From the IMG/VR virus record IMGVR_UViG_3300031974_002532, positions 1-51,117 of that record: DNA of 51,117 nt. One strand, 5' to 3'. The notes beneath the pieces were generated by a model. That model worked only from the letters and a program-made list of their open reading frames with translations, ran no database searches and was not told the DNA's origin. The position numbers and the translations under genes were made by a program. Source of the DNA: a virus. Below are positions 11,169-45,604 of the stretch, piece by piece (position 1 is the stretch's first letter; every line of letters begins with the position of its first letter).

Positions 11169-11903
11169 ATGCCTATATTCGATGACGACGACATTCCGTT
11201 TCCTGTGTGGACGCAGCATGACGTTGATTTGTTGGAGGCAATTGATCCGTTTCTTCTGTACGGGTTGACGAATGTTGTCGAATATCTTGTGACCCGCAAT
11301 GGCATGGTCGATAACGAAAAGTTTGATCTGCTGTTGTTGATGCATGCTGTGGCGAATAAAGATTCCAGAGAAGACATGTATTCGTTGGATGAAACCGAAG
11401 CCGTTATTGGTGTTGCTAGCGAGTTTTGTTTAGTTGATTGTTTGTATGATCGTCAGTCTCTTGAAGCGTTAGAGTTGCAGGATAACGGGGTGTTGTTTCT
11501 TGCTTTGAACGAGTCGAATGGTGCTGCTTTGGACGCCGCCGTCTGCTTGTCAGGGAGATCTTCCTCCATGTTTAGATACGACGCTGTTCGGCCTTCGTTG
11601 GCGTTGTTTGGTGAGTGGGAAACTATTTCTGGAGAGATATTGAAAGCCTTGTTGACTATGGGGCAGACATCCACTAAGATAGGTTTCCTAGTCGAATACT
11701 TGAAGGCTAGTAAGAATATCCCTCTAGACGATTTGTTACTGATTGGAATTTTGTTAAAGCTTGCAGAAGTTGGTTTGTTTAACATCTATTTAGATAGCGA
11801 ATCAGATGGAGTTCTTTCCATAAACACTCAAGCAGCGGGCATCTTCTTGTTGTTCTCCAACAGAGAAGAGTTAGCTAGGCGGCTAGCTGAGCTGACAGAA
11901 TAA
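11169..11903 (+). CDS. Hypothetical protein, first gene of the accessory cassette
   Basis: A 244-residue acidic, helical protein, starting MPIFDDDDIPFP. The ATG at 11169 is chosen because TATAAT stands 6 nt upstream; a longer in-frame form from TTG 11124 would start inside the terminator. Helices rich in Leu and Glu, and segments such as LLLIGILLKLAEVGLFNIYL, suggest an all-alpha soluble protein, possibly with a winged-helix-like C terminus. No family is recognised. It opens the cassette between the capsid gene and the connector genes and has its own promoter, so it is probably expressed independently of the structural operon. Confidence 0.7.
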   Translation: MPIFDDDDIPFPVWTQHDVDLLEAIDPFLLYGLTNVVEYLVTRNGMVDNEKFDLLLLMHAVANKDSREDMYSLDETEAVIGVASEFCLVDCLYDRQSLEALELQDNGVLFLALNESNGAALDAAVCLSGRSSSMFRYDAVRPSLALFGEWETISGEILKALLTMGQTSTKIGFLVEYLKASKNIPLDDLLLIGILLKLAEVGLFNIYLDSESDGVLSINTQAAGIFLLFSNREELARRLAELTE

Positions 11904-13980: not shown

Positions 13981-13988
13981 CGGGATAT

Positions 13989-13994
13989 TATAAT
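13989..13994 (+). promoter_or_regulatory. -10 element upstream of a candidate small RNA
   Basis: A perfect TATAAT starts 9 nt after the nrdJ stop; no convincing -35 is seen. Transcription from it would begin near 14001, and the next gene start with a clear promoter is not until 14181, beyond a strong terminator. Confidence 0.45.
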
Positions 13995-14000
13995 ATGCAA

Positions 14001-14164
14001 AGTTGCAATCTGTCGCAATTTGGGAAGTTAAAGTATTTGTGTACCGGCAAATTTGACTAACCCCGAAGGAGGAGATTGTGATTATCGGCTAACGTGCCGG
14101 TAGCCGTAAAAGCAATCGCACGTCTAGGGCGGGGTTTGGTCAGTTTGACTGAACCCCGCTTTTT
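14001..14164 (+). ncRNA. Candidate small structured RNA between nrdJ and the next gene
   Basis: About 164 nt lie between a TATAAT and a strong intrinsic terminator without a credible gene. A perfect 8-bp inverted repeat (TACCGGCA at 14042-14049, TGCCGGTA at 14095-14102) encloses a 45-nt loop. In that loop an excellent ribosome-binding sequence, AAGGAGGAG at 14066-14074, precedes only a four-codon frame (GTG 14078 to TAA 14092). This could be a regulatory RNA, a leader peptide element, or an anti-SD-binding sponge. It matches no riboswitch class I can name. Boundaries are inferred from sequence only. Confidence 0.4.
14129..14164 (+). terminator. Intrinsic terminator overlapping the next promoter
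   Basis: GCGGGGTT (14129-14136) pairs with AACCCCGC (14152-14159), with an inner GTCA/TGAC stem, followed by five T. The -35 of the next promoter (TTGACT) lies inside its 3' half. Confidence 0.85.
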
Positions 14165-14174
14165 ACGTTATGAT
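14145..14174 (+). promoter_or_regulatory. Promoter embedded in a terminator; leaderless start
   Basis: TTGACT at 14145-14150, an 18-nt spacer and TATGAT at 14169-14174. The ATG at 14181 follows the -10 by exactly 6 nt with no ribosome site, so the mRNA should be leaderless. Confidence 0.7.
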
Positions 14175-14180
14175 ATGCAT

Positions 14181-14555
14181 ATGGCTTCTTCTTTGAGGGA
14201 TTTAAGGCTTAATGGCGTGCAGCACGAGTTGCTTCTTGTTGCTGCTTGTTGTAAGCATGGCCTAGCGGAGACTGTTCCGATAGATGACGAGAAGCGGCTT
14301 TCTTTACCGGCAGCAATTGCTGTCTTTGTTGGTTTGATGCCTGAACGCAATTTGTCTAATAATTTTGATGAACTGTTAGATAAGATACCCGCTAACAGGA
14401 GAGCTAACTTTATCAGGTGTTGGGAAGCTATTGAGATGTTTGTTGGGGAAGACATCGTGGATTGGTCTGAGCGGGTTGGTAGTGAAGAGGCGTACAAGAC
14501 TATTAAGTCTTTAGCTGGTGAGGTGGCTAACGCCAACTTGTATAGGCCACGTTAG
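14181..14555 (+). CDS. Hypothetical accessory protein
   Basis: A 124-residue, mostly helical protein starting MASSLRDLRL. The start is fixed by the promoter: -10 TATGAT ends 6 nt upstream. A longer frame opening at GTG 14094 would have to read through the terminator, and the region before 14181 encodes a low-quality peptide, so it is rejected. It contains two adjacent Cys near residue 24 and a long C-terminal amphipathic helix. No family is recognised. The next gene also has its own promoter, so this appears to be a single-gene unit, the kind often used for early host-takeover proteins; that role is only a guess. Confidence 0.65.
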   Translation: MASSLRDLRLNGVQHELLLVAACCKHGLAETVPIDDEKRLSLPAAIAVFVGLMPERNLSNNFDELLDKIPANRRANFIRCWEAIEMFVGEDIVDWSERVGSEEAYKTIKSLAGEVANANLYRPR

Positions 14556-14604: not shown

Positions 14605-14994
14605 ATGAGGCATGAACAGCGATGGCATAAGCATTACGAGGCACTATGCGCATATGAAAAACGCTATGGTGACGCTATCGTGCCGACAGATCACGTAGAG
14701 TTTTTAGACTCGGGTGAATGCATCAGTTTAGGCAATTGGGTTAGTTACATGCGGACGAGATACAAGCAGAACGCATTGGCAGCTAACCGGATTCAGTTGT
14801 TGGAAAGTCTTTCTTCTTGGACTTGGGGTCCTGTTAGGCCGGGACCGAAGTCGAAGGACTTTATTGCAGAAAGAAACAGTCAGATTTATAGCGAGTATTC
14901 TAACGGTGAGACGTTAGCTAAGATTGGTGCTCGGTATAGGTTGTCCCGTCAGCGGGTTCATCAGATAGTAAAGGAATATGAAAATGGTAAATAG
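14605..14994 (+). CDS. DNA-binding protein: helicase-associated domain plus helix-turn-helix
   Basis: A 129-residue protein with two parts. Residues about 1-75 match the helicase-associated (HA) domain pattern: W-x3-Y-x2-L near the start, a Gly-Asp and Val-Pro in the middle, then LGNWVSYMRTRYKQN and a closing Trp. Residues about 88-127 form a helix-turn-helix (ETLAKIGARYRLSRQRVHQI) resembling sigma-70 region 4 or resolvase HTH. It probably binds DNA and may act as a regulator. It is driven by the best leaderless promoter in the window. The next gene overlaps its end by 11 nt, so the two are translated together. Confidence 0.75.
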   Translation: MRHEQRWHKHYEALCAYEKRYGDAIVPTDHVEFLDSGECISLGNWVSYMRTRYKQNALAANRIQLLESLSSWTWGPVRPGPKSKDFIAERNSQIYSEYSNGETLAKIGARYRLSRQRVHQIVKEYENGK

Positions 14995-41347: not shown

Positions 41348-41581
41348 ATGACACTTGAAGATAATCTTTACGAGTCCGTGCCTGATAGGCTTTACTATGA
41401 TCGTAGCTACACGACATGGTATGCCTGCTATGACAGCGACATGTGTGTACTGACAAACAGTACGGGCAGCTTAGAATCTTTCTGTTATTCGTCCAAGAGC
41501 GAATACAGAGACGTACGGAGGACAATTGTAGAAGAATACGACCTTAAGCAGGTGAAGCAAATTTATGATGAAGATGACTGA
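41348..41581 (+). CDS. Small hypothetical protein
   Basis: A 77-residue acidic, Tyr-rich protein (MTLEDNLYESVPDRLYYDRS) with two cysteines at its middle. It starts 4 nt after the exonuclease stop and overlaps the purine-enzyme gene by 17 nt. A longer in-frame form reaching back into the exonuclease zinc ribbon is not credible. No family is recognised. Tight coupling to the enzymes on either side suggests a role in the same process. Confidence 0.6.
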   Translation: MTLEDNLYESVPDRLYYDRSYTTWYACYDSDMCVLTNSTGSLESFCYSSKSEYRDVRRTIVEEYDLKQVKQIYDEDD

Positions 41582-42587
41582 AACTGAAGGACTGTCTTTC
41601 GAAGACGTTCTGATTGTTCCTCGGTATTCGGAAGTTCGTAGCCGGTCAGACGTAGATTTGTCTACCCGTTTGGGCCACGTCGATATGCGTATTCCGATCA
41701 TCGCTGCGAACATGGATACTGTTTGTGGTCATGAGATGGCTGGCGCTATGGATCGGCTGGGAGGTTTCGGTGTCATTCACCGCAACATTCCGTTGAGCAC
41801 TTCGGATCCGCTTGCTTCCCGATTTGGTTGTGTGGCAGGTAGAACTAACCGTACTGCTGTAGCGTTCGGTGTCAACGATGATCTTGATGCCGTAGTCAGA
41901 GAGGTCAACAATTGGCGAACTAAGATCGTTGTTTTGGACATTGCCCACGGTCATAGCGCTCACGCGTTGGACGCTATTCACTACATTAAGGATCAGTTTG
42001 ATCACGAAGTGACTATTGTTGGCGGTAATGTGGCTACCGGTCAGGGCGTTGCGGACTTTGCTGAAGCAGGCGCTAATGTCGTTAAGGTCGGTATCGGTCC
42101 TGGCGGTGCTTGTTCTACACGGGTTGTGACCGGTGTTGGCGTTCCGCAGCTAACTGCTATTGCTGATTGCGCTGAAGCCGCCGACGCTTATGATGTGCAG
42201 ATTATTGCTGATGGCGGTATCAAGACTCCCGGCGATGCTGCTAAGGCACTAGCTGCTGGTGCAGATGCCGTCATGATTGGCAACATGTTTGCAGGCACCG
42301 ACGAAGCTCCCGGCGAGATCATGGAAGTAGACGGTAAGAAGGTAAAGGCGTACCGTGGTATGGCTTCAACAGCAGCAGGCTCTGACTACCCTGAGGGAGT
42401 GTCAGGCTACGTTGACTACAAGGGCAGCGTTGAAGCTATCGTTGAAGGGTTGGAGCGAGGCATCAAGTCTACTTGCAGCTATGTGGGTGCGAAGAACATT
42501 CTTGAGCTTCATAACAACGCTACGTTTATGAAAGTTTCTAACGCCTCCTTGCGTGAGTCCGCTCCGCATGATATGATTGTGGCATGA
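41565..42587 (+). CDS. IMP dehydrogenase / GMP reductase family enzyme
   Basis: A 340-residue TIM-barrel enzyme without CBS domains. Visible motifs: [15 protein letters not shown] at the N terminus, [11 protein letters not shown], the flap [14 protein letters not shown] with catalytic cysteine C183, [11 protein letters not shown], the phosphate loop [20 protein letters not shown], and YRGMAS. The flap cysteine marks an active enzyme. Length and lack of CBS favour GMP reductase (GMP to IMP), while the GGIKTPGD and AGTDEAPGE segments look more like IMPDH (IMP to XMP), so the direction is unresolved. It probably shifts guanine-nucleotide pools during infection. ATG 41565 or ATG 41574 could be the start. 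Confidence 0.88.
42549..42577 (+). promoter_or_regulatory. Candidate promoter inside the purine-enzyme gene, leaderless start for DNA polymerase
   Basis: TTGCGT (42549-42554), a 17-nt spacer and TATGAT (42572-42577), then exactly 6 nt to ATG 42584. It lies within coding sequence, so part of the match is constrained by the protein; the exact geometry still matches the other leaderless promoters. Confidence 0.45.
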
Positions 42588-44588: not shown

Positions 44589-44651
44589 GGGGTTGTGTCC
44601 CCGTTTGATCGGTGCTAAGGTTTCCGACATCTTCCGCAAAGCGTAGAAGAT
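44589..44651 (+). promoter_or_regulatory. Structured leader region of the sigma factor gene
   Basis: The gap 44519-44680 holds two hairpins: GGGG/CCCC around TTGTGT (44589-44602), and ATCTTC-CGC pairing with GCG-TA-GAAGAT (44629-44651) around an AAA loop. The second lies 30 nt before ATG 44681. No promoter is convincing here. The hairpins may modulate sigma translation or protect the message. Confidence 0.35.
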
Positions 44652-44680
44652 ACCGTATATCTCAGATGAAAGGCAGCTAT

Positions 44681-45604
44681 ATGGCTGGATACACTCTCAG
44701 TTCAAAGCACAAGATTCTTACCCGTGAAGAAGAGATTGTGCTGGGACGGGCAATTCAAGAAGGACTAGAAGCCGACCGGATTCTCAACGAATCCCACATT
44801 GAAGGCATTAGTATTGATCCCATGGAGAGGCGACGGTTGAACGCAGCCGTTCGGGAAGGTAAGCGCTCCAAGGACACGTTCGTTTCGCACAACTTGCGGC
44901 TAGCGATGGACACGGCAGCGAAGTACGCACGTTCGCAGTCCCGTATGGAGTATGAGGATCTCATTCAGGAAGCCACGATTGGTCTTATGCGTGCGGCAGA
45001 CAAGTTCGATCCTGAGCGTGGGTTCAAGTTCTCTACGTATGCTACGTGGTGGTGCCGACAGGCGTGCCAGCGTGCTATAGCGAACCAGGGCCGTGCTATA
45101 CGTCTACCTATGCATGTTGAGGCTGATGTGCGTAAGCTGGCTGCTGTGGTTGAGGAGTTTGAGTCTAGCCGTAGCAGTTTTTCGATGTATGAGATTGCTG
45201 ACTATCTGGATTGGGAAGACGATTATTTGGATGAGATTTGGGGCCATATGGAGAACACAAAGTTGGAGTCTTTGGATGTTCCTTTGAGCGAGGAAAGCAT
45301 GGTTTCTCATGCTGACACGTTGGTGAATTCGGATCAGATTGCGGTAGAGGACGCAGGTATTGAGGGCAGTTTTGCTGACGATATCATGCAGGCTTTGTCG
45401 ATTCTGCCTGAGCGGGAGTATGATGTGTTGATTAAGCATCATGGTCTTGCGGGGCAGGGCGCTCCGAAGACGTTGCAGGAGATTGGCGAGTCGATGGGTT
45501 TGACTCGTGAACGTGTTCGGCAGCTAGAGGCTAAGGCTATTGCCCGGTTGCGGCATCCTTCTTCTGGGATTGCTTGGGCATTTAGTCAAGAAAACGACGA
45601 CTGA
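44681..45604 (+). CDS. Phage-encoded sigma-70 family RNA polymerase sigma factor
   Basis: Encodes 307 residues from ATG 44681 (AAAGGCAG 5 nt upstream); ATG 44666 is an alternative. Region 2 is clear: HNLRLAMDTAAKYARSQ, YEDLIQEATIGLMRAADKFD and the promoter-melting segment FKFSTYATWWCRQACQRAI. Region 3 follows (FSMYEIADYLDWEDDYLDEI), and region 4 ends the protein (LPEREYDVLIKHHGLAG, TLQEIGESMGLTRERVRQLE). The layout resembles host group 1/2 sigma factors minus region 1.1. It would bind host RNA polymerase and direct it to phage promoters, possibly the late genes or the TATAAT-like leaderless promoters seen here. Confidence 0.93.
   Translation: MAGYTLSSKHKILTREEEIVLGRAIQEGLEADRILNESHIEGISIDPMERRRLNAAVREGKRSKDTFVSHNLRLAMDTAAKYARSQSRMEYEDLIQEATIGLMRAADKFDPERGFKFSTYATWWCRQACQRAIANQGRAIRLPMHVEADVRKLAAVVEEFESSRSSFSMYEIADYLDWEDDYLDEIWGHMENTKLESLDVPLSEESMVSHADTLVNSDQIAVEDAGIEGSFADDIMQALSILPEREYDVLIKHHGLAGQGAPKTLQEIGESMGLTRERVRQLEAKAIARLRHPSSGIAWAFSQENDD

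Follow-up and report, generated by a model that had tools for sequence, protein, structure and literature searches.

In the ribosomal-protein operons regulated by entrapment, such as the alpha operon bound by S4, a pseudoknot around the Shine–Dalgarno (SD) sequence holds the 30S subunit without productive initiation, and the bar minigenes of phage lambda are expressed as phage transcripts in which an SD and a start codon are followed by a stop within a few codons. The pRNA of phage phi29 is a phage RNA of about 170 nt with complementary loops. The c4 RNA of P1 and P7 is a phage-encoded antisense RNA directed against the ant mRNA (PMC12197685), and in the cry3A mRNA of Bacillus thuringiensis an SD-like motif, STAB-SD, binds 16S rRNA without initiation and protects the mRNA (PMC4113751). 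Among known elements, STAB-SD comes closest in function as a precedent for an SD that does not initiate translation. In the open-access literature we found no description of a phage RNA that presents an SD.

The candidate described here is encoded in the 51,117-bp IMG/VR virus record IMGVR_UViG_3300031974_002532, the whole of which was analysed and is termed the window. The MCP of this phage, described as marine, is nearest to those of Brevibacterium and Gordonia phages (about 47% identity), so its host is probably an actinobacterium.

Layout and distribution of the RNA

The RNA lies between nrdJ and a gene termed F1, and its TATAAT hexamer lies 8 nt past the nrdJ stop codon. The parts from which the first-pass annotation had built a candidate small RNA (TATAAT after nrdJ, the inverted repeat, AAGGAGGAG, the four-codon frame and the terminator) were all located where it had placed them. 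The 5′ end was deduced from the −10 box and the 3′ end from the terminator, which was overlooked by a simple scan and is clear in an inverted-repeat search and in folds. The features are as follows.

13986–13994, + strand: −10 promoter element TATTATAAT of the RNA (hexamer TATAAT at 13989–13994; no conserved −35)
14000–14021, + strand: hairpin P1 (AAGTTGC / GCAATTT), weakly supported
14001–14164, + strand: conserved non-coding RNA, about 164 nt (nhmmer/blastn homologues, matches to covariance model R1)
14022–14064, + strand: hairpin P2, comprising P2a (GGG..GTTA / TAAC-CCC) and P2b (ATTTG / CAAAT), with TACCGG (14042–14047) in its apical loop
14042–14049, + strand: 5′ arm of the putative loop–loop pseudoknot, TACCGGCA (perfect 8-bp inverted repeat)
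14066–14072, + strand: SD motif AAGGAGG, in the P2–P3 linker
14074–14117, + strand: hairpin P3 (GATTGT 14074–14079 / GCAATC 14112–14117), enclosing P4
14078–14092, + strand: four-codon frame GTG ATT ATC GGC TAA, not conserved
14086–14091 / 14101–14106, + strand: hairpin P4 (CGGCTA / TAGCCG), inside P3
14095–14102, + strand: 3′ arm of the putative loop–loop pseudoknot, TGCCGGTA (perfect 8-bp inverted repeat)
14129–14164, + strand: intrinsic terminator, a 14-bp stem GCGGGGTTTGGTCA-GTT-TGACTGAACCCCGC followed by TTTTT
14145–14174, + strand: F1 promoter TTGACT-18-TATGAT, its −10 ending 6 nt before the F1 ATG
14181–14555, + strand: F1, a 124-aa protein, family not assigned, immediately downstream of the RNA

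Loci were gathered with nrdJ searches, short patterns and an F1 protein profile, and homologues of the RNA were detected in them with nhmmer and a covariance model. They comprise 32 distinct sequences across about 50 IMG/VR contigs, with pairwise identity falling to 49% among the 28 distinct homologues aligned to the covariance model. The RNA is present in every F1 locus except three near-identical contigs (L047, L048 and L071), always lies directly upstream of F1, and was found in no locus lacking F1. Among isolated phages, blastn and tblastn detected relatives of neither the RNA nor F1. A scan of GTDB genomes with a degenerate pattern gave 17 matches, about the number expected by chance, none of which was backed by the covariance model; locus L005, collected through an 18-nt exact match, was likewise discarded as chance. 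In Rfam 15, no family reaches its gathering threshold at the RNA, tRNAs elsewhere being the only hits that do, and the best sub-threshold match, asX6 (RF02239; 18.9 bits, cut-off 50), fell largely on the terminator and was attributed to chance. Comparative support is strong for regarding the RNA as a new family of structured RNAs encoded by phages.

The upstream neighbour of the RNA varies (nrdJ, a peroxiredoxin-like gene or another ORF), and TATTATA is kept at a constant distance in most homologues despite these differences, L140 and L144, with weaker −10 boxes, being exceptions. Because the −10 box persists when the upstream gene changes, the terminator is strong and F1 has a separate promoter, the RNA seems to be transcribed as a separate unit, as judged from sequence signals alone. 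Its own −10 box and terminator, with the conserved structure described below, give the original reading as a small RNA good support. F1 in turn is preceded, in nearly all homologues, by a −10-like box 5–7 nt from the start codon, from which a leaderless F1 mRNA is predicted; the RNA is accordingly predicted not to be the leader of F1. Some read-through may occur past the terminators of several relatives, which have a poor T tract.

These signals bear on whether the RNA could be a cis-regulatory leader of F1, a riboswitch or attenuator possibly sensing a metabolite of ribonucleotide reduction. Its unfailing position immediately upstream of F1 and its pseudoknotted fold with a terminator would suit such a role; the F1 −10 box, which would exclude the RNA from the F1 mRNA, and the lack of any Rfam match make it a long shot. 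Nothing in these results backs a metabolite sensor linked to the reductase, as first suggested: nrdJ lies upstream of the RNA, a peroxiredoxin-like gene stands between the two in many relatives, Rfam has no matching aptamer, and the mRNA that follows is predicted to be leaderless.

That intervening gene is AhpC-type by eye (L015:6007–6519 and equivalents). In L039, L041 and L042 (3995–6862) nrdJ exceeds its relatives in length by about 300 aa, which points to an insertion or an intein; a split match is seen in L070 as well. The −35 of F1 (TTGACT) falls inside the 3′ arm of the RNA terminator, so that terminator and promoter overlap (14129–14174). The F1 protein has no Pfam or PHROG match; its AlphaFold model is all-helical (pLDDT 91.7), and a fold comparison with this model gave no PDB match. 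The phage encodes its own sigma-70-like factor (44612–45604), in which regions 1.2, 2 and 4 are present and which might read the promoter of the RNA, devoid of a −35. The small protein encoded at 14605–14994 combines a Helicase-associated (HA) domain with a Mor/sigma region-4-like helix-turn-helix and is a possible late transcription activator, and an IMP dehydrogenase/GMP reductase-family gene (41574–42584) adjoins that of a family A DNA polymerase.

Covariation and the loop–loop pairing

Relative to shuffled sequence, the whole element folds with a z-score of −5.6, and with −2.7 when the terminator is left out. The structure model, made up of P1, P2a/P2b, P3/P4, the loop–loop pseudoknot and the terminator, was evaluated on the 28 aligned distinct sequences, in which 85% of pair cells are standard pairs, compared with 22–47% in slid-structure controls. 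Changes on both sides affect 15 pairs and 56 cells (9.0 and 19.4 in shuffles). The covariation score of 0.202 compares with 0.109 for shuffles and was equalled by none of 500; some of this support leans to the model because the covariance-model alignment was fitted to it. A MAFFT alignment (A3) points in the same direction with lower power (0.116 against 0.094; 0 of 500). From the raw alignment, RNAalifold recovered the pseudoknot helix and the terminator alone, and the remaining helices were therefore placed manually, guided by single-sequence folds, before being tested. Homologues without conserved pairing had been named at the outset as what would speak against a structured RNA; the covariation analysis found pairing conserved.

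Covariation supports P2b, P3 and P4. The best-supported helix is P4, with 90.6% of cells paired and six pairs changed on both sides, its sequence being replaced by AGATCA/TGATCT in L032 and by GTTGATG/CATCAAC in L031. P3 is paired in 98.7% of cells, with two pairs changed on both sides. P1 is paired in 77.6%, with two pairs changed on both sides and two mostly mismatched, and P2a, at 66%, is weakly supported, being swapped in L044 for a 12-bp stem of different sequence. The terminator stem also covaries.

Each repeat arm sits in the apical loop of a separate hairpin, and pairing of the two would thus form a loop–loop (kissing) pseudoknot. The first-pass annotation had described an 8-bp inverted repeat enclosing a loop: the repeat is exact, and the region that it encloses is no simple loop. 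The CCGG/CCGG core is invariant (28 of 28) and as such counts neither for nor against the pseudoknot. At its edge, a C–G pair is changed to A–U by compensatory substitution in two lineages (L032 and L128), and is mismatched in L140/L144 and L133. An alternative 5′ pairing, GTTGCAATC/GATTGTGAT, is possible in the window and is not conserved (L016, L026, L041 and L051).

Since the CCGG loops are both mutually and self-complementary, they could in principle pair between molecules, as in phi29 pRNA, in an RNA that serves packaging or binds a protein. The location of the gene in the head-gene region, downstream of the capsid gene, and its strict pairing with F1, a possible protein partner, would fit such a role. 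It would leave the invariant SD unexplained and would depend on multimers that are hypothetical here, and we regard it as very improbable.

The Shine–Dalgarno motif and the four-codon frame

AAGGAGG is present in all 28 homologues aligned to the covariance model, 14–18 nt after loop 2 and 18–25 nt before loop 4, and on the + strand of the window it occurs only once, in the RNA. With the 16S tail GGAUCACCUCCUUUCU, a standard tail that is assumed here and may not be that of the host, the site reaches −15.6 kcal/mol over 12 bp with one mismatch. The gene starts examined are all weaker (−13.1 at best; −8.2 for MCP and −8.3 for nrdJ). In most homologues GATT after the motif lengthens the match, to −18.2 in L032, and complementarity to the 16S 3′ tail is both strong and conserved. 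The site ranks 79 of 51,103 14-mers, its energy being rivalled or surpassed by individual 14-mers elsewhere, so the strength of the SD alone is not unusual; its position and conservation are. In secondary-structure models that omit the pseudoknot, the mean unpaired value of the SD is 0.43, falling to near 0 in L039 and L041.

The SD might serve only to stabilize the RNA itself, a bound 30S subunit blocking nucleases, and the work would then be done by some other feature, for example the kissing loops, the AUCUA tail or the segment CUAACCCC. This has the precedent of STAB-SD (PMC4113751), and both CUAACCCC and the tail are conserved; we consider it unlikely, given that the motif is some 65 nt in from the 5′ end, not at that end, and that no target came to light for the other segments.

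The four-codon frame that follows the SD takes the form GTG-N-ATC-GGY-stop in 22 of 31 homologues, with a good SD-to-GTG spacing of 5–6 nt. L034 and L044 have a different frame, ATG GTA TCG GCG TAG, and two homologues have TTG ATG TAG. No good start or no short frame is found in L032, L036, L078/L151, L128 and L133; at least four lineages have lost the start, the stop or both. In L151 the change is a compensatory one, from U–A to C–G in P4, which converts the stop TAA into CAA. An arrangement of SD, start, short frame and stop is thus not conserved across the family. Loss of start and stop while structure and SD stay argues against a leader peptide or minigene; what selection seems to preserve is the structure and the SD, not a peptide, and the frame is probably a by-product of P3/P4.

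A minigene or leader peptide would require initiation at the SD and termination after a few codons, either stalling ribosomes or draining tRNA, in the manner of the lambda bar minigenes, or opening P3/P4 and so switching the terminator to let transcription enter F1. The persistence of short frames in most homologues and their spacing from the SD are what such a mechanism would predict. Its second codon is unconstrained, however, its third and fourth lie within P4, and F1 has its own promoter directly before its ATG. A possible antiterminator pairing of CTAACCCC with the GGGG of the terminator was set aside because L034 and L044 lack CCCC. The leader-peptide switch of the first-pass annotation is weakened by these results, and we judge it unlikely.

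Proposed function and comparison with known systems

An invariant, unpaired consensus ribosome-binding site without a conserved coding role points to direct interaction between the RNA and the ribosome. Building on what comparison of the homologues shows (conservation, structure, independent transcription signals, an invariant motif and a mini-ORF that is not conserved), our leading hypothesis, with a probability of roughly 0.45, is a stand-alone RNA whose scaffold would present the SD to 30S subunits as a decoy or trap. Of the original suggestions, the ribosome-binding decoy is the one that survives; expression, binding to 16S rRNA and benefit to the phage are what we infer.

In the proposed mechanism, a phage RNA of about 164 nt would be made from its own promoter to its own terminator, and the kissing pair UACCGG/CCGGUA would lock P2 and P3/P4 side by side. 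The AAGGAGG linker between the locked hairpins would stay available to the 3′ tail of 16S rRNA and, acting as RNA without a conserved product, would capture 30S subunits. P3/P4 would tie up the start region and hinder productive initiation. Capture could favour the phage, for example its several leaderless genes, over host messages. Several points weigh against the decoy: the SD is no more than partly unpaired in the models that omit the pseudoknot, the extended 16S match is in competition with P3, the four-codon frame persists in most homologues, and a general decoy would tax the phage because its own capsid and nrdJ genes use SDs, albeit weaker ones. Alternatively, the partner of the purine motif could be a protein or a different RNA.

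Seven window genes (starting at 11169, 14181, 14605, 18432, 35246, 39814 and 42584) have a TANNNT box 6–7 nt before the ATG and little or no SD. At least seven genes, F1 included, are thus predicted to be leaderless beside SD-led structural genes.

In the three contigs without the RNA, an unrelated intergenic region separates nrdJ from a distant F1 (L071:5939–6290; also L047 and L048). It holds a 33-aa ORF followed by a hairpin, AGGAGGTGATG, a long hairpin and a terminator, and its exposed SD, AGGAGGTGAT, reaches −19.0 kcal/mol with the 16S tail. Functional replacement of the RNA by this region is possible; the layout serves as a lead only, because three near-identical contigs cannot be tested for covariation. 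A more specific version of the decoy hypothesis is doubtful, though worth stating: the pseudoknotted scaffold would tie up 30S initiation on leadered mRNAs without antisense pairing, leaderless phage messages would be less affected, and the L071-type sister lineage would have swapped in an unrelated RNA of the same layout. If the decoy hypothesis were true, the phage would control host translation by RNA alone, in a genome that mixes leaderless and SD-led genes.

Compared with known RNAs, the likeness to asX6 (RF02239) is confined to a terminator-like hairpin. The c4 RNA is also a phage-encoded structured RNA, with an antisense mode of its own, and phi29 pRNA is similar in size and in its complementary loops; the packaging role belongs to pRNA, and the RNA described here matches no Rfam family. 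Lambda bar minigenes have the same SD–start–stop layout, whereas the present RNA conserves structure and not the short frame. A pseudoknot around an SD is common to the alpha operon, where it forms part of a cis leader bound by a ribosomal protein, and to this RNA, which appears to be a stand-alone transcript. STAB-SD is alike in carrying an SD-like sequence that matches the 16S rRNA 3′ end without directing translation, the corresponding binding being putative for the phage RNA; it is located close to the 5′ terminus of a long mRNA, whereas the phage motif is set within a pseudoknotted RNA that seems to stand alone.
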